NCBI RefSeq assembly: GCF_900187945.1
Contig: NZ_FYEH01000004.1
Span: forward strand, 62,001 to 126,000
Length of the DNA: 64,000 nt
Source of the DNA: Arboricoccus pini
GTDB taxonomy: Bacteria; Pseudomonadota; Alphaproteobacteria; Geminicoccales; Geminicoccaceae
Direction: 5' to 3'
Positions 37,002 through 50,551 of this stretch are shown piece by piece (position 1 is the stretch's first letter; each line of letters starts with the position of its first letter). The notes below the pieces were generated by a model. That model was not told where the DNA came from. It saw only the letters and a program-made list of their open reading frames with translations, and made no database searches. Both the position numbers and the translations under genes were made by a program.

Positions 37002-40000
37002 TCAGGCGGCCTTATGCAATTCCTCCACATGCGTCGCGGTCTGCGTGGCACCGGTCTCGACCGGATGGAAGAGATCGGTGCTGGTCGAGAGCGTGTGGAC
37101 CGCCGCCGTGTCCAGGACATGGTTAATCGCCGAGACGGCGGCACTGTTGGTCGCATGGCCGCCATTCGCGGCCTCGGTGGAGACGGTCTGCGCCTGGCTC
37201 ACCTCAGCCGTACTGGGCGTGGAGCCGCTCAGAATGTCGCTGCCGGCAGGCGCGGCCGCGGCATGCGTCGCGCTCGAAGTGCCCTGGGTCGTAGTCGTGG
37301 TCAGCTGATCGCCCAGGATGTCGCTGCCGTTCCCCGTGTCCAGCGATGTCGTGGCGCTCAGAAGGGAAACCTTGGCCAGCGAGGCGACGCTGCTGGCCGG
37401 TGTCACGACGAAGTCGTGTTGGCCATCGGCCGTCTCGAGGCCGGTAATGCCGGTCGCACCGCTGCCATAGTCCTTGATGGTGGCGAACTGCTTACCGTCA
37501 TAGCTGAGTGCCAGATCATTGCCGGAGAGCGCGCTGCTGACCTTGCTCCAGGCACCGTCGAAATAGACCTTGTTGAGATCAAGGCCGCTGGTCCCGCGCG
37601 TGTCGATGATAGTGGCGATACCGGAATCGGTGCTCCGCAAATAATAGGAATCGTTGCCGGCGCCGCCCGCCAACACGTCATTGCCGCCACCACCCACGAT
37701 GACGTTGGCACCGCTGTTGCCGACCAGCAGATTGTCGTGCGCGTTGCCCCAGAGGCCAAGATTGTCGGATCCCTTGAGCAGCGCGTGGTCGATACTGGCC
37801 GAACTGACCGGCCATGCGGTGCCCACGAGGCCAGCCGGCGCCGTCCCGGTCGCCCCGGCCAGCTTGATATAGCCGGCGATGCCGAAATTCGCATTGTAGC
37901 TGACGGCATCGACACCGGTGGCGGCCGTGCCGGCGAACGCGGTGGCAAAGCTGGGCGACCAGACATGCGTGCCGGTAAAAAAGCTCGTGATGTCAGCGCT
38001 GCTGGTGGGCAGCGCCGTCGCATCGTGCGGCGCGAAGGACGAGAAGGCCTGGGTGCCGCTGCCGATGTCGATGCCGCTGAAATTCGCCTCGTGCCCGACA
38101 TAGTCCTTGATCGTGGCGATCGTCGTGCCGTCATAGGCCAGCACCATGTCGCTGCCGCCGGCGGTCGCCACCAGCTTGCTGGCATTGATCCCGGTGAGCT
38201 TGAGCAGGTTGACGCCGTCCGTATCGGTGATCGTCGCATTGCCGCCGACGCTGAGGACATAGGTGTCGTTGCCGAGGCCGCCTTTGAGCGTATCCGTGCC
38301 GCCATTGCCCGTGAGCACGTCCTGGCCGGCGCCGCCGACCAGGGTGTCGTCGCCCGTCGTGCCGGTCAGCGACTGGCTGAAGGTCGAGAGCACGCGCGTG
38401 CCCGCGCCGTCACCAAGGTCGATCCCGGCAATGGCCGATGGATGGCTCGCATAGTCGGCCATCGAGGCGATGGCCGTGCCGTCATAGAGGACGGTCAAAG
38501 CGGCACCGGTCAGGGCGATGACCAGCTTGGAGGCATCCCCGCCCGCAAGTTTCAGGACATTGCTGCCCTCGCCGTCGGTGATGGCGACCTTGCCCGAGGC
38601 ATCGAGGATATAGGTGTCGCTACCGGCCCCGCCGACGGCCTGGTCCACACCGCCCTTGCCGTCCAGGATGTCATTGCCGGGGCCGCCCACGAGGCTGTCG
38701 GAGCCGCTCGTGCCGCTCACATACTGGGCAAAGCTCGCGAACGGCTTGACACCGCCGCCGAGATCGAGCCCGGCGAAATTCTCGGTGTGCAGGCCATAAT
38801 TCTTAATCGTCGCGATCGTGCTGCCGTCATAGGAGAGGACGAGGTCATAGCCGTTCATCGCGACCAGCACCTGGCCGGCCTCGCCGCCGGGCAGGCTCAA
38901 AACATTAAGGCCCTGCTGGTCGATGATCGTGGCGTTACCGGCGCTGGAGAGCACATAGGTGTCGCTGCCGTAATCGCCGATGAGCGTATCGGTGCCGCCA
39001 TTGCCAAGAAGCGTGTCATCGCCGCTGCCGCCGGTCAGCGTCTCGTTGCCGGACGTCCCCGCGATCGCCTGGCGGAAGGTTGAGAACGCCACCGTGCCGC
39101 TGCCGAGATCGATGCCCGGAAAGCTCGCAGGCGCGCTCGCATAACCAATGATGGTCGCGATCTTGGCCCCGTCATAGAGGATGGAGAGATCACTGCCCGC
39201 GAGCGAGACCAGGATCTTGCCGGCATCGCCGCCTGCGAGCTTGAGGGTCGAGATGCCCTGCCCGTCCGTGATCGTGACAACCCCCGTCGTCGAGAGAACG
39301 TAGCTGTCCGCCCCGGCCCCGCCCTGGAGCGTGTCGCTGCCGCCCTTGCCGTCCAGGACGTCATTGCCCGCGCCGCCCTGAAGGACATCGTTGCCGGTCG
39401 TGCCCGTCAGCGTCTGGTTGAAGCTGGTGAAATTGGCGACGGTACCGCCATTGACCGTCAGGCCCGGAAACGCCGACGGATGAAGGGCATAGTCCTTGAT
39501 CGTGGCGATCTGCCGTCCGTCATAAGCGATCAGCAGATCGTCGCCGCTCGGGCTGATCATGATCTTGGCGACATCGACGAGGCTGGTCGAGGTGCCGAGC
39601 TTGAGCGTGTTGATGCCTTCCTTGTCGACGATGAGGTCGGCTGCCTGGGTCGTCGGGCTGAGGATATAGGTGTCGTTGCCGGCACCTCCCTGGAGGATGT
39701 CGCCGCCACCCAGGCCGGTTAGGGTATCATTGCCGGCATCGCCCATCAGATTGTCAGCCCCCAGGGTCCCGGTGAGCGACAGATCGCCGACCGGCGGCTT
39801 GCCGAAGCTCGAAAAGGCCACGACGCCGCTGCCGAGGTCGATGCCGGTGAAATTGGCGGCACGATCGGCGAAATCGCGGATCGTCGCGACATGCGCGTCG
39901 CCCACATAGATGTCGAGATCGCTGCTGCCCTGGACGACATAGACCGAGGAGGGCTTGAGATCGCCCAGGAGCCGGATCGTGTTCTGACCGCTCGCATCGT

Positions 40001-42296
40001 CGATGACCCAGGCCGGCGTGGCGGCGTTGCCGGCCTTGAGTATGTAGATATCGTCGCCGACACCACCTTTGAGGACCTGGCCGGTGCCGAGCTGCGTGCC
40101 GCTATCCACCTGGCCGTTCACCGCCGTGGGGTCGATGACGTCATTGCCGTCGCCGCCGGCCAGCGTCGAACCCCATTGCGAAGTGATGTACTGGCCCTCG
40201 ATCGGCGGCTTGGGGAGGCTGGCGATCGATACGACCCCGTTGCCAAGATCGATGCCGACGAAATTCGCCTCGTGGCCGACATAGTCGGAGAGCGTGGCGA
40301 TCGTCTTCTTGACCAAGGCGGCGTTGCCTGCCGGATCGGTGCGCGAGGTGTCGTAATAGGCGTAGCTGATCTCGAGGCCCGTGCCGACCAATTGCGCATA
40401 GAGGCTGGCCGTCGCCGGCAGATTGCTGATCTTGATGGTGTTCAGGCCCTGCGAATCGATGATCGTGTCGATTTCACCCCTGGTGGCGCGCGTCGCGTCC
40501 AGAAGGTAGGTGTCGTTGCCAGCCCCCCCCTGGAGCACGTCGCTGCCGCCATTGCCGTCCAGCGTGTCGTTGCCCGGTCCTCCCGAGAGCGTGTCGCTGT
40601 AGGTGGTGCCGATAACGACCCGGTCGCCGCTCGATGGGGCGGCAAAGCTCGCAAAGCTGCGGACACCCTGGCCGTCGCCAAGGTCGATGCCCGCGAAGTG
40701 GGCGGCGTTGGCGGCGTAATTGTCGATCGTCGCGATGTCGCGGCCATTATAGGCGATGACGAGATCGACGCCGCTGGCGGCGATCGTGACGCGGGCGGCA
40801 TCGCCGCCCGGGAGATAGATCGTGTTCAGGCCTTCAGTATCGAAGATGCGATCCGAGCCGTCCTCGGCCAGGCCCAGGAAAAACCCGTCATCGCCCTCGC
40901 CGCCATAGAGGACGTCATAGCCGCCACCGCCGGCCAGCACGTCGTTGCCGGCGTCGCCATAGAGATAGTCCGTGCCGGCTTCGCCATAGAGGACGTCGTT
41001 GCCGCCGCCGCCATGGACGATATCGTCACCGCCGCCAGCGGCGATCTGATTGGCGCCGTCATTGCCGTAGAGCAGATTCGCCTTGTCGTCGGCCCAGATG
41101 TCGTGATTGTCCGAGCCTTCGAGGCGGAGGTTCTCGATATCGGTCGCGACCTGTTGCGTCGCCGTGTTGAAACCGGCCGGAACTGCCGCCAGGCTGGCAC
41201 CCATCTTGAAGGTGACGGTGCCGTCGCCATAGACCGAGGATGAGAGGCTCGCGGCATTGGCCCGCCAGTCGCCGGCGATGACCAAGGTGTCGTTGCCGGC
41301 ACCGCCATTGACAAGGTCGGTCGGCCCATGACTGTAGAGGACGTCGTCGCCCTCGCCGCCATCCAGGATATTGGTGCCGGAGCCGCCATCCAGGATATCG
41401 GCGCCAGGGCCGCCATGCAGGATGTCGTTACCCTCCTCGCCGAAAAGCTGGTCGTTGCCCTCGCCACCCTCAAGCAGGTCGCGGCCCGCACCGCCATGGA
41501 TGACGTCGTTGCCGTCATCGCCATAAAGCTTGTCGTCGCCATCCTGGCCATAAATAATGTCATTGCCGACATTGCCATGGACGAGATCATCGCCGGCACC
41601 GGCATAGATGATGTCGTCGCCGGCGCCACCATCGAGATTGTCGGCGAGGTCGGTGCCATAGATAACATCGTTGCCATCGCCGCCTACCGTGACATCGCCG
41701 ATGCTCGGCCGGTTGCTGGCATCTGTCGAGCCGTCGATGGTCCCACTTGCATCGTCGAGGGCCAACGTCGTGACATCGGTGTTGGCCGAGGCTGAGAGCT
41801 TGATGCTCATGTCACCCAGATTCTCGCCGAGCGGCAAGGGCGCGAGGGAGTAGCCGGTGTCGATCACGGGCTGCGGCGCGGCCGTCCCATCCGCCTGGCC
41901 GGCGATCATGAAGCCCTGCCCCGAGGCCGTGACGTCGAGCGGCACATCGCCGGAACTGCCGACAAGGAGCGCCCCGGGGACGGCGGGAGCCAAGACAACC
42001 GGCTGGGCCGGCGCCGGAGTCGTCGACATCTCGGCACCGGCCGGGTGTGGAGAAGGCTCATGGTTCGGTGCAGCCGTACTGGCGGCCTCGCCGGCCTCGG
42101 CCGCGGCCCGCGTGGTGAACATCGCCAGGGCCACGCCCAGGAGCGAGACGCCTGCCGGTCCCATGAGATAGGGTCTGCCCGCCGACCGCCTCGGTCGCCG
42201 AGCCTGGCCGGGTGCGGCCGGCACTGTCGGCGCTGTCGGCTGTGAGGGCTCGCCGGCATCGAGGCCGGCCGACATGCTTGCACCAGACTTTGCCAT
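37002..42296 (-). CDS. Large modular RTX (haemolysin-type calcium-binding repeat) protein
   Basis: A 1764-residue acidic protein, probably exported. Residues ~1-43 are Pro/Arg-rich, followed by a hydrophobic segment (YLMGPAGVSLLGVALAMF, ~43-60) ending in Ala-rich residues. After a linker (~65-200), RTX nonapeptides GGxGxDxxx run densely at ~205-340 and again at ~420-475. About nine repeats of a 105-140 residue module follow (~475-1655), each of RTX units plus a beta segment of the form LKLxGGDAxKxxVxxxGxDLxxxYDG, IATIxDY and GIDLGxG. The segment resembles the haemolysin-type calcium-binding related domain (HCBP_related). No enzymatic domain is seen. The Ser/Thr/Ala-rich C terminus could hold a type I secretion signal; no T1SS genes are adjacent. 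Confidence 0.88.
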   Translation of the reverse strand: MAKSGASMSAGLDAGEPSQPTAPTVPAAPGQARRPRRSAGRPYLMGPAGVSLLGVALAMFTTRAAAEAGEAASTAAPNHEPSPHPAGAEMSTTPAPAQPVVLAPAVPGALLVGSSGDVPLDVTASGQGFMIAGQADGTAAPQPVIDTGYSLAPLPLGENLGDMSIKLSASANTDVTTLALDDASGTIDGSTDASNRPSIGDVTVGGDGNDVIYGTDLADNLDGGAGDDIIYAGAGDDLVHGNVGNDIIYGQDGDDKLYGDDGNDVIHGGAGRDLLEGGEGNDQLFGEEGNDILHGGPGADILDGGSGTNILDGGEGDDVLYSHGPTDLVNGGAGNDTLVIAGDWRANAASLSSSVYGDGTVTFKMGASLAAVPAGFNTATQQVATDIENLRLEGSDNHDIWADDKANLLYGNDGANQIAAGGGDDIVHGGGGNDVLYGEAGTDYLYGDAGNDVLAGGGGYDVLYGGEGDDGFFLGLAEDGSDRIFDTEGLNTIYLPGGDAARVTIAASGVDLVIAYNGRDIATIDNYAANAAHFAGIDLGDGQGVRSFASFAAPSSGDRVVIGTTYSDTLSGGPGNDTLDGNGGSDVLQGGAGNDTYLLDATRATRGEIDTIIDSQGLNTIKISNLPATASLYAQLVGTGLEISYAYYDTSRTDPAGNAALVKKTIATLSDYVGHEANFVGIDLGNGVVSIASLPKPPIEGQYITSQWGSTLAGGDGNDVIDPTAVNGQVDSGTQLGTGQVLKGGVGDDIYILKAGNAATPAWVIDDASGQNTIRLLGDLKPSSVYVVQGSSDLDIYVGDAHVATIRDFADRAANFTGIDLGSGVVAFSSFGKPPVGDLSLTGTLGADNLMGDAGNDTLTGLGGGDILQGGAGNDTYILSPTTQAADLIVDKEGINTLKLGTSTSLVDVAKIMISPSGDDLLIAYDGRQIATIKDYALHPSAFPGLTVNGGTVANFTSFNQTLTGTTGNDVLQGGAGNDVLDGKGGSDTLQGGAGADSYVLSTTGVVTITDGQGISTLKLAGGDAGKILVSLAGSDLSILYDGAKIATIIGYASAPASFPGIDLGSGTVAFSTFRQAIAGTSGNETLTGGSGDDTLLGNGGTDTLIGDYGSDTYVLSSAGNATIIDQQGLNVLSLPGGEAGQVLVAMNGYDLVLSYDGSTIATIKNYGLHTENFAGLDLGGGVKPFASFAQYVSGTSGSDSLVGGPGNDILDGKGGVDQAVGGAGSDTYILDASGKVAITDGEGSNVLKLAGGDASKLVIALTGAALTVLYDGTAIASMADYASHPSAIAGIDLGDGAGTRVLSTFSQSLTGTTGDDTLVGGAGQDVLTGNGGTDTLKGGLGNDTYVLSVGGNATITDTDGVNLLKLTGINASKLVATAGGSDMVLAYDGTTIATIKDYVGHEANFSGIDIGSGTQAFSSFAPHDATALPTSSADITSFFTGTHVWSPSFATAFAGTAATGVDAVSYNANFGIAGYIKLAGATGTAPAGLVGTAWPVSSASIDHALLKGSDNLGLWGNAHDNLLVGNSGANVIVGGGGNDVLAGGAGNDSYYLRSTDSGIATIIDTRGTSGLDLNKVYFDGAWSKVSSALSGNDLALSYDGKQFATIKDYGSGATGITGLETADGQHDFVVTPASSVASLAKVSLLSATTSLDTGNGSDILGDQLTTTTTQGTSSATHAAAAPAGSDILSGSTPSTAEVSQAQTVSTEAANGGHATNSAAVSAINHVLDTAAVHTLSTSTDLFHPVETGATQTATHVEELHKAA
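37400..40880 (-). repeat. Coding repeats inside the RTX gene
   Basis: The segment encoding IATIxDY recurs near 40724, 40291, 39883, 39496, 39148, 38812, 38463, 38104 and 37471, giving spacings of about 433, 408, 387, 348, 336, 349, 359 and 633 bp. Copies 5 to 8 are the most regular. Sequence drift between copies shows they are not a recent expansion; the last spacing holds a separate insertion of ~90 residues. Confidence 0.85.
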
Positions 42297-45899: not shown

Positions 45900-46343
45900 T
45901 TAAGGTCGCCAGGCCTCGTAGTCGCCGGTGGCGGGTGCGCGCTTGCCACCGCGTAACTCGTGGCCGGCCGGGACATAAGCCTGCGGCGTGCCGGTCAGAT
46001 TTGGCAAATAGGGCTTTTCCCACCTTTTATGCGGGAGATTGGCAGCAGTCGGCACTTCCTGGATGCTATGATGCAGCCAGCCATGCCAGCCTGGCGGCAC
46101 CATGCTGGGCTCGATCTCTCCGGCGCCCGCATAAACGACCCAGCGACGCTCCTGGCGCCAGTCGCTCCCACGCGCCTGACGATAATATTTGTTGCCGAAC
46201 TCGTCCTCGCCGACGAACGCGCCGCGAAATCGCGTCATCAGAAAGGTTTGGAGCGCATTATCGCGCAAGAATCTCAGCAAGCCCTCTGCTCCCGTCTTGC
46301 CGCCCGCCGTAAACGCGCGGGCGCGCCTCATCGACCGCCCCAT
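45900..46343 (-). CDS. NADH:ubiquinone oxidoreductase accessory subunit NDUFA12 family
   Basis: A 147-residue protein with the B17.2/NDUFA12 core: VGEDEFGNKYYR, RRWVVYAG, EPSMVPPGWHGWLHH and the C-terminal KPYLPNLTGTPQAYVPAGH. In alphaproteobacteria this is one of the few accessory complex I subunits shared with mitochondria. ATG 46343 gives MGRSMRRARAFT; the longer frame runs into the DnaA-box region. Its start lies 30 bp from the nearest DnaA box. The transcript ends at the strong hairpin at 45830-45858. Confidence 0.92.
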   Translation of the reverse strand: MGRSMRRARAFTAGGKTGAEGLLRFLRDNALQTFLMTRFRGAFVGEDEFGNKYYRQARGSDWRQERRWVVYAGAGEIEPSMVPPGWHGWLHHSIQEVPTAANLPHKRWEKPYLPNLTGTPQAYVPAGHELRGGKRAPATGDYEAWRP

Positions 46344-46373
46344 TATGCCCTGCCGCTCAGCACTCCGCCACCC

Positions 46374-46382
46374 TGTGGATAA
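46374..46382 (-). promoter_or_regulatory. DnaA box 1
   Basis: TGTGGATAA, the exact complement of the consensus TTATCCACA. It lies 30 bp upstream of the NDUFA12 start. A degenerate copy, AGGGGATAA, follows at 46384-46392. Confidence 0.7.
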
Positions 46383-46412
46383 CAGGGGATAACGCCAGGA
46401 CCGCAGGCGAAC

Positions 46413-46421
46413 TGTGGATAA
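46413..46421 (-). promoter_or_regulatory. DnaA box 2
   Basis: A second exact TGTGGATAA in the same orientation, 39 bp from the first. Two exact boxes this close are unlikely by chance in GC-rich DNA. Confidence 0.7.
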
Positions 46422-46690
46422 GAGGGGAAATCTGTGTGCCGTGATAACTCTCAGCAAAAATCAGCGAAACACTGAGATGCGGTCCTGCCGATGCACCAAT
46501 CCGGATTCGGCCATGAGAACAAGACTGAACTCCAGCTCAGCTGACCTCATGCCGATAATTCCACCCTGGCGTGCGTGTTCTGCCTGTCACACCAACCCAC
46601 CCAGGACGCGAAATCCAGCCTTTCAGGCCAAAGAGGGGCTTCACGAAACCCGCGAGAAGGAGGAATGTTCAGGGGCAGCGATATCGCTCG

Positions 46691-46706
46691 GCACCATATA
46701 TTGGTC
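46691..46706 (+). promoter_or_regulatory. nrdJ operator: NrdR box 1
   Basis: The core CCATATATTG matches the NrdR consensus CwAtATaTwG at nine of ten positions. NrdR represses ribonucleotide reductase genes when dATP is high; its boxes are typically paired about three helical turns apart. Confidence 0.8.
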
Positions 46707-46721
46707 CGGAAGGATTCAGGC

Positions 46722-46737
46722 ACTCAATATATAGCGA
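46722..46737 (+). promoter_or_regulatory. nrdJ operator: NrdR box 2
   Basis: The core CAATATATAG matches all ten consensus positions. It starts 31 bp after the core of box 1, placing both on the same DNA face about 190-230 bp upstream of nrdJ. Confidence 0.85.
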
Positions 46738-46927
46738 GCACGCGGAGTGAATGAGCTGCCGTCGCCTTGCCCGGGCGGCGACTGTCAACCTTGTATCAGT
46801 CAACGGTCAGGCATCTATCAGCGTCGCTTGAGTATCAATCTATGGGTACAAAAGGCGGGTTGAATCAGCCGATTTGAATTGACGAACAAGACGAGAACAC
46901 GCATTTTGCGTCGTAAGGAGGAGAACA

Positions 46928-49900
46928 ATGCCGCTGTCGATCACGCGGAAATTCACCAGCGACGGTGAGAGCCCTTACGCGGCCATTCCCTTCCGCACGA
47001 CCTCGAGCGAGATCCGCAATCCGGACGGCTCGGTCGTCTTTAAGCTGGATCGTGCCGACGTCCCTGCCGCGTGGTCGCAGGTTGCCGTCGACGTTCTTGC
47101 CCAGAAATATTTCCGTAAGGCCGGTGTTCCGGCGCGCCTTAAGAGCGTGCCGGAAAAGGGCGTGCCCGCTTGGCTTTGCCGGCGTGTCGCCGACGAAAGT
47201 GCGTTGGCAAAGCTGCCCGAGGACGAGCGCTATGGAAGCGAGACAAGCGCCGCCCAGGTCTTTGATCGCTTGGCCGGTACTTGGGCCTATTGGGGTTGGA
47301 AGGGAGGCTATTTCAGCACCGAGGCGGATGTCCGCGCCTTCTATGACGAATTGCGCTGCATGCTCGCCAGACAGATGGGCGCGCCCAATTCGCCACAATG
47401 GTTTAACACGGGCCTGAACTGGGCTTACGGCATCGATGGGCCGGCGCAGGGCCATTTCTATGTCGACGAGACGAACGGCAGCGTCCTGGCGTCGAGTTCC
47501 GCCTATGAGCGCCCGCAACCGCATGCCTGCTTTATCCAAAGCATCGCCGACGACCTGGTCAATCAGGGCGGCATCATGGATCTCTGGGTGCGCGAGGCCC
47601 GTCTCTTCAAATACGGCTCGGGTACCGGAACTAATTTTTCCGCGCTGCGCGGCATCAACGAGCCGCTCTCCGGTGGCGGTCGTTCGTCGGGCCTGATGAG
47701 CTTTCTCAAGATCGGCGACCGGGCGGCCGGCGCCATCAAGTCGGGCGGAACCACGAGGCGTGCCGCCAAGATGGTGACCGTCGACGTCGATCATCCCGAC
47801 ATCGAGGACTATATTCTCTGGAAAGTGCAAGAGGAGCAGAAGGTGGCCGCCCTCGCCGCGGGCTCCAAGCTGCTCCAGCGGCATGCGCGTGCGGTGATGG
47901 CCGCCTGCCAGACCGACGGCATCGAGGGCGATCGCTTCGATCCCAAGAACAACCCCGCCCTTCGCAAGGCGCTCAAGGAAGCGCGCAAATCCCTGCTGCC
48001 GGATGCCGCCATGCAGCAGGTCCTGTTTTATGCGCGACAGGGCTACAAGGACATCGAGATCCGTACCTACGACACGGATTGGGACAGCGACGCCTACCTC
48101 ACCGTTTCCGGCCAGAACTCGAATAATTCGGTGCGGCTGTCAGATGATTTCGTCCGAGCGGTGCTGGCCGATCGTGACTGGCGGTTGATCCGCCGAACGG
48201 ACGGCAAGCTCGCCAAGTCGATCAAGGCCAAGACGCTGTTCGACAAGATCGCCTATGCCGCCTGGGCCAGCGCCGATCCCGGCGTGCAGTACGACACGAC
48301 AATCAATGATTGGCACACCTGCCCCAGTGCCGGGCGGATCAATGCGTCCAATCCTTGCTCGGAATACATGTTTCTGGACGATACGGCCTGCAATCTGGCC
48401 AGCTTGAACCTGATGATGTTCAAGCAGACGGATGGTCGCTTCGCGGTCGATGACTTCATCCATGCGGTGAGGATCTGGACGATCGTGCTTGAGATCTCGG
48501 TCTTGATGGCGCAGTTCCCGAGCGAAAAGATAGCCGAGCTGTCCTTTCGGTTCCGCACCCTGGGCCTTGGCTTTGCCAATCTGGGCGGTCTCCTGATGGC
48601 CTCGGGCCTGGGTTATGATAGTGATGGCGGCCGAGCCTTCTGCGCGGCGATCACGGCGCTGATGACCGGTACCGCCTATGCCGTCTCGGCGGAGATGGCG
48701 GCGGCTCTCGGACCGTTCCCAGGCTTTGCGCCGGATCGTGAAAATGCGCTGCGCGTGCTGCGCAACCACAAGCGGGCCGCGTTCGGCGAGGCCACAGGGT
48801 ACGAGTCGCTGAATACCCCGCCCGTCCCTCTGGATGCTGCCATCTGTCCCGACCCCGATCTGGCGCAAGCGGCCCGGCAGGCCTGGGAGCAGGCCGTTGT
48901 GGCAGCCGAACAACACGGGCTGCGCAACGCCCAGGTCTCAGTCATAGCGCCGACGGGTACGATTGGCCTCGTCATGGATTGCGATACCACCGGCATCGAG
49001 CCCGACTTCGCTCTGGTGAAGTTTAAGAAGCTGGCGGGCGGCGGCTATTTCAAGATCATCAATCGGATGGTCCCGGACGCACTTCGCACACTGGGCTACG
49101 GCACGGCTGAGATCGAGGCGATCACGCTCTATGCCGTCGGTCGCGGTACCCTCAAGGACGCCCCAGGCATCAATCACGAAACCTTGAAAATCAAAGGTTT
49201 CACGATGGAAGCTCTGGAAAAGCTTGAACAGAGCTTGCCGGCCGCCTTTGACATCAAATATGCCTTTAATCGCTTCACTCTGGGCGAGGACCTCTGCAAG
49301 GACGTCCTGGGCTTCACCGATGCGCAACTGGCCGAGCCAGGTTTTGACATGCTAAAAGCCCTCGGCTTTACCAAGGCGGAAATCGAGGCAGCCAATAATT
49401 ACTGCTGCGGCACTATGACGATCGAAGGTGCGCCGCATTTGAAGCCCGAGCATTATGAAGTCTTCGATTGCGCCAATCCTTGTGGGCGACTGGGAAAACG
49501 CTTCCTGAGCACATCCAGTCATATTCGCATGATGGCGGCAGCTCAGCCATTTATTAGCGGCGCCATCTCGAAGACAATCAACATGCCGGCCAATGCCGGA
49601 ATCGAAGATTGTGCCGAGGCTTATCTCGAAGGTTGGAAGCTCGGCCTCAAGGCCTTGGCCCTCTATCGCGATGGCTCGAAGCTCTCGCAGCCGCTTTCCT
49701 CACAACTGATTGAGGAATTGGATGACGAGGAGGACGATGTCGAGCCGGTTGTCTTGAGCCAGGTCGACCGGGTCAAGGAAGTAACGGAGCGTATTGTCGA
49801 GCGCTTGATTGGTGAACGGCGACGTCTACCCTCCCGCCGCAAGGGCTACACGCAAAAGGCTGTCGTCGGCGGACATAAGGTCTATTTGCGTACCGGCGAA

Positions 49901-50551
49901 TACGAAGATGGCACGCTCGGCGAGATCTTCGTCGACATGCATAAAGAGGGGGCTGCCTTCCGCTCATTGATGAACAGCTTCGCGATCGCTGTTTCCATCG
50001 GCCTTCAATATGGCGTGCCGCTTGAGGAGTTTGTCGAAGCTTTTTCGTATACGCGGTTCGAACCGTCGGGAATCGTTAGCGGAAACGATACGATAAAGCT
50101 TGCAACTTCAGTTCTGGATTACATTTTTCGTGAGTTGGCTATATCTTATCTTGGACGAACCGACCTAGCTAATGTAGAACCAGCCGATGTACGGCATGAT
50201 GCGATTGGAAAGGGTTTGCGTGAGGGCGAGCGAATCGAACAGCCGGCGACGGCCTTTGCCAGTTCGGGCTTCGTTCGCGCCAATCTTCGGCTCCTGGCCG
50301 GTGGCGGCCAGTCCGGGGTCAATACTGTGGCAGAGAAGTCATCTGTCATGAAGAGATCAGGTCACAGCGGCTCTCAAGGCCTTGCCGAGCCAGCTGCGAC
50401 CTTTACCAATAGTCGCACCGAGCAGGTGCAGATCGCCAAGCTGAAAGGCTATGTGGGTGATCCCTGCTCGACTTGCGGCAACTTCACGCTGGTGCGGAAT
50501 GGCACCTGCCTGAAATGCGATACCTGCGGCTCCACCACTGGGTGCAGCTAG
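46928..50551 (+). CDS. nrdJ: Adenosylcobalamin-dependent (class II) ribonucleoside-diphosphate reductase
   Basis: A 1207-residue reductase of the long class II type. The N-terminal part has [16 protein letters not shown]; the 10-stranded barrel includes [34 protein letters not shown] and [20 protein letters not shown]; the C terminus holds a zinc-ribbon-like Cys cluster ([20 protein letters not shown]) after a TSCPD-like region, thought to re-reduce the active site. It needs no oxygen and no NrdB, but needs cobalamin, matching the cob genes nearby. The ATG has AAGGAGGAG five bases upstream. Two NrdR boxes and two DnaA boxes lie upstream, and a strong terminator follows. Confidence 0.97.

Follow-up and report, generated by a model that had tools for sequence, protein, structure and literature searches.

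DnaA regulates the nrdAB operon of E. coli, and DnaA boxes, among them a double box, are described upstream of this class Ia ribonucleotide reductase (RNR) operon (PMC8203912, PMC11317965). E. coli DnaA prefers box pairs separated by gaps of 2–3 bp, corresponding to offsets of 11 or 12; of 32 single boxes that match the consensus, it bound no more than 13 (PMC11317965). DnaA control of nrdAB has also been proposed in Caulobacter crescentus, as stated in the cited part of PMC8203912, and in this alphaproteobacterium the promoters of the DnaA-regulated genes gcrA, ftsZ, mipZ and hdaA contain one to several DnaA boxes; nrdJ is absent from these four in the portion of the study used here (PMC3193534). 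Clusters of DnaA boxes located outside the origin, in intergenic DNA, are represented by E. coli datA and DARS. The titles, abstracts and selected passages covered by a partial literature search made no mention of nrdJ being controlled by DnaA, and nothing in them links LexA or DnaA to nrdJ in alphaproteobacteria.

The window considered here (the whole stretch of 64,000 nucleotides that was analysed) belongs to an alphaproteobacterium of the family Geminicoccaceae with a genome of 4.07 Mb in 28 contigs, and the closest relatives of its nrdJ are also found in Geminicoccaceae. The boxes lie between NDUFA12 and nrdJ, gene names that were already given in the earlier note and that agree with the profile matches. 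The two genes are divergent neighbours, NDUFA12 on the minus and nrdJ on the plus strand, in nearly all genomes of the family where both can be placed, and the following features were recognized in and around their intergenic region:

45900–46331, minus strand: NDUFA12 gene (Pfam PF05071, E 9.5e-26; NF006040)
46342–46370, minus strand: putative NDUFA12 promoter read from the sequence, -35 TGGCGG (46365–46370), 17 bp, -10 CATAAT (46342–46347); relatives have comparable elements in the corresponding position
46374–46382, minus strand: predicted DnaA box 1, TTATCCACA, exact match, conserved in the family
46384–46392, minus strand: weak partner of box 1, TTATCCCCT, 7/9, 10 bp start to start; phased element conserved over 31 boxes
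46413–46421, minus strand: predicted DnaA box 2, TTATCCACA, exact match
46423–46431, minus strand: degenerate partner of box 2, AGGGGAAAT, a sequence match of 5/9, itself weak
46692–46707, plus strand: NrdR-like box 1 (sequence match); most relatives have similar boxes about 230–420 bp ahead of nrdJ
46723–46738, plus strand: NrdR-like box 2, 31 bp from NrdR-like box 1
46879–46907, plus strand: putative nrdJ promoter read from the sequence, TTGACG (46879–46884), 17 bp, CATTTT (46902–46907); TTGACGAACA conserved in the family
46884–46898, plus strand: LexA-type operator with the motif GAAC-N7-GAAC, which overlaps the spacer of the putative nrdJ promoter and the end of its -35 element
46928–50551, plus strand: nrdJ, vitamin B12-dependent class II RNR (NF005736, 2080 bits)

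The likely NDUFA12 start is the ATG at 46331–46329, placed from the promoter position; a consensus promoter scan detected neither the putative NDUFA12 promoter nor that of nrdJ. Like E. coli nrdAB, the locus has DnaA boxes upstream of an RNR gene, but in comparison with the cited descriptions of that system the enzyme is of class II, the gap within the pair is mostly 1 bp, the boxes are farther from the start, NDUFA12 is a divergent neighbour, and a predicted LexA operator is present. It resembles the Caulobacter promoters in the number of boxes. With the NrdR-box-controlled RNR promoters, as far as these are covered by the cited part of PMC9110341, it shares the presence of two NrdR-like boxes, spaced by 31 bp and here located ahead of nrdJ, to which it adds the DnaA boxes and the LexA-type operator.

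Two exact copies of TGTGGATAA occupy 46374–46382 and 46413–46421, 39 bp apart from start to start, precisely as the earlier note had it, and each of them is embedded in a 17-nt direct repeat, CTGTGGATAA(C/G)AGGGGA. The genome as a whole contains 11 copies of this 9-mer against 12 of the reversed control, so that the 9-mer as such is not enriched, which would suit a reading of the boxes as chance or neutral 9-mers. Within the window, however, two copies are found where 0.07 are expected (0 of 100 shuffles reach two), and the location of 2 of the genome's 11 copies within 39 bp of each other is unlikely to be accidental (p ~0.001). The recurrence of the boxes throughout the family also speaks against chance. 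The earlier note had named a lack of conservation in orthologous regions as the refuting outcome, and the boxes proved to be conserved: the exact pattern TTRTCCACA, which TTGTCCACA joined after the relatives were inspected, occurs in 17 of the 25 orthologous intergenic regions, that of the window genome included, and in 12 of 15 genera (24 boxes in total; dinucleotide shuffle mean 0.10 genomes). The form TTGTCCACA is the DnaA box of G+C-rich bacteria, such as Streptomyces. For comparison, the pattern is present in 9 of 2709 fetched 700-bp tiles (0.33%), which are mostly coding; the binomial values for the recurrence ignore relatedness and indicate no more than that it is far above background. 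A de novo 9-mer search of the intergenic regions ranks TGTGGATAA first (9 of 15 genera against 0 expected), with the LexA/promoter 9-mer GTTCGTCAA emerging beside it. The exact box is missing from 8 of the 25 family regions, and near copies, for example CTGTGGACAG, are found in some of the genomes without it. One orientation is shared by 27 of 31 boxes. Outside the family the signal is weak, a DnaA box being found in 3 of 72 nrdJ upstream regions against 0.4 expected.

When 31 boxes are aligned, a further conserved element, GGA-N-AA, is seen to follow the first at a distance of exactly 10 bp. The partner score has a mean of 2.45 and reaches 4.63 at this offset (z 4.6 over offsets); the test is partly circular, since these very boxes had first drawn attention to the offset. 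At the other DnaA boxes of the window genome there is no partner signal at offset 10, and upstream of rsmH the partner peak is at offset 11. It is due to this element, conserved at the same phase across the family, that the weak copy AGGGGATAA at 46384–46392 (7/9, one helical turn after box 1), pointed out in the earlier note, appears to be meaningful. The other weak copy proposed there, CCGTGATAA at 46439–46447, matches at 5/9 only and was rejected as a DnaA box. The arrangement upstream of nrdJ thus resembles the double DnaA boxes, composed of a strong and a weak site, with a slightly tighter spacing (a 10 bp step, that is, a gap of mostly 1 bp). The phased partner, together with the recurrence, makes the chance reading very improbable, and the boxes upstream of nrdJ are, judging by their sequence, very probably functional DnaA sites.

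The intergenic region with the boxes is long and, at a GC of 0.56, richer in A+T than the genome (~0.64), a setting that would also be appropriate for a chromosomal replication origin, and the earlier note, which raised this alternative, had suggested a GC-skew check. Calculated from contigs and samples, the skew stays below or close to zero over 340 kb of contig C9 and does not flip at 108 kb, where the boxes are situated; in the complete genome of a relative, G005, it is positive on both nrdJ flanks. An origin at this place is therefore unlikely, and it was rejected. The skews of G003 and G018 were too noisy or weak to use. Counted as an oriC-type cluster, the nrdJ locus offers two strong boxes only, and a better candidate exists on contig C8, where a gap of ~310 bp beside parB-parA-rsmG-mnmG (L030:9850-10170; G000:C8 253.85-254.17 kb) contains two exact boxes and a near-exact one; the cumulative skew has a broad minimum close by, and hemE is 17 kb away. 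In G005 the skew, judged from sparse samples, changes sign near parB at 503 kb. The control loci around dnaA or parB in the relatives contain essentially no boxes, and for the lack of boxes beside parB there the contig C8 site is a candidate only. We consider it extremely improbable that the boxes at nrdJ are the origin.

The boxes could alternatively constitute a datA/DARS-like titration or reactivation site, which would bind DnaA and tune initiation whatever genes happen to be adjacent. The position of the boxes within the intergenic region varies among relatives while the boxes themselves persist, and as many as four or five are present in some of these genomes, both of which are consistent with such a role. 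The window genome, however, has only two strong boxes, in contrast to datA and DARS, and the adjacent gene, nrdJ, is the same across the family, a constancy that a titrator would not need. We therefore regard titration as quite unlikely.

If the boxes serve to control transcription, there are two possible targets. Box 1 starts 4 bp upstream of the putative NDUFA12 -35 element, and in most relatives the boxes are in the NDUFA12-proximal half of the region; in the window genome they are 506–546 bp upstream of the nrdJ start and thus promoter-proximal to NDUFA12 and not close to the RNR promoter. DnaA might accordingly activate or repress NDUFA12, a complex I subunit gene, from just upstream of its -35 element, alone or with nrdJ. 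The coupling of complex I to DnaA is possible because the boxes adjoin this promoter. Against it, however, the 16 NDUFA12 loci of other families yielded two boxes only, one of which is inside the NDUFA12 gene, and in several relatives the sole box is near nrdJ. In G003, G009, G010, G018, G019 and G024 a box lies ~90–130 bp from the nrdJ start. A rearranged genome, G006, provides a further comparison. There NDUFA12 is downstream of nrdJ on the same strand, as judged from two contigs each with part of nrdJ (L255, L256), and four boxes (two TTGTCCACA, one TTATCCACA and one TTTTCCACA) are found ~500–630 bp upstream of nrdJ, with none upstream of the relocated NDUFA12. The boxes stayed with nrdJ after NDUFA12 had moved and did not follow it, which favours nrdJ as the target, this being the evidence of one fragmented draft genome. 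We consider control of NDUFA12 rather unlikely.

Control of the class II nrdJ by DnaA is the best-supported reading, and we give it slightly better than an even chance. The coupling of DnaA to a class II reductase, which the earlier note had advanced, is best supported by the conservation of the boxes and their retention in G006, while the choice of nrdJ rather than, or besides, NDUFA12 as the target is one that we infer, as is the sign of the effect. Against DnaA control of nrdJ stand the distance of more than 500 bp in the window genome, the gap of mostly 1 bp where E. coli DnaA prefers 2–3 bp, the 8 family regions lacking an exact box and the weak signal outside the family. Among the possible roles of the boxes, control of nrdJ nevertheless ranks first, ahead of control of NDUFA12 and titration. 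No DnaA boxes were found at the class I nrdA of the window genome. The second reductase of this genome is class I-like, with an ATP-cone and a barrel domain (L315:2593-5544; G000:C12 159.6-162.5 kb), and it has an NrdR-like box and no DnaA box upstream.

Under DnaA control of nrdJ, the strong box and the weaker box one helical turn further on would bind DnaA in the upstream control region of the gene, and the bound protein would adjust nrdJ transcription so as to match the supply of dNTPs to the state of the replication initiator. From ~520 bp upstream, DnaA would need looping or an undetected upstream promoter to do so. It would act alongside NrdR, responding to the nucleotide state through the boxes at 46692–46738, and LexA, responding to DNA damage through the operator at 46884–46898. 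Were this true, the coupling of the initiator to dNTP synthesis, which in E. coli concerns class I (and class III) reductase genes, would also include the B12-dependent class II enzyme, and the link would have arisen or persisted whichever class of enzyme was involved.

The motif GAAC-N7-GAAC is the alphaproteobacterial type of LexA operator, and its position over the putative nrdJ promoter is that expected of an operator in a LexA regulon. Of the 25 family genomes, 17 have a predicted LexA-type site 44–59 bp ahead of nrdJ; the 72 nrdJ upstream regions from outside the family contain none. In the window genome the lexA match, too, is preceded by this motif, at a distance of 64 bp; none was found at recA of this genome. 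From these predicted sites, nrdJ looks to be SOS-regulated in Geminicoccaceae only. We suggest tentatively, as a possible rather than a probable picture, that the nrdJ of Geminicoccaceae may integrate DnaA (replication), NrdR (nucleotides) and LexA (damage) at a single control region, with NDUFA12 possibly sharing the DnaA site.

Paired boxes recur upstream of both nrdJ and rsmH, the latter belonging to the dcw cluster. In 23 of 29 family genomes boxes are present upstream of rsmH, typically ~465 and/or 25 bp from the gene (L344 (G000:C23); loci L316-L345), and in the three loci checked they lie in the rnpB-rsmH gap. This suggests that the nrdJ and rsmH boxes may form a small DnaA regulon, and it singles out nrdJ and rsmH/dcw as probable targets of DnaA in a little-studied alphaproteobacterial family. 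The extended motif TGTGGAYAANNGGGRA, derived from the nrdJ locus, was tried as a genome-wide regulon motif and rejected, with 6 matches in 31 genomes, four of them at the nrdJ locus itself.

Elsewhere in the window, positions 37002–42296 of the minus strand encode a repetitive protein of 1764 aa with many repeats of the GGxGxDxx type (RTX-like, calcium-binding).
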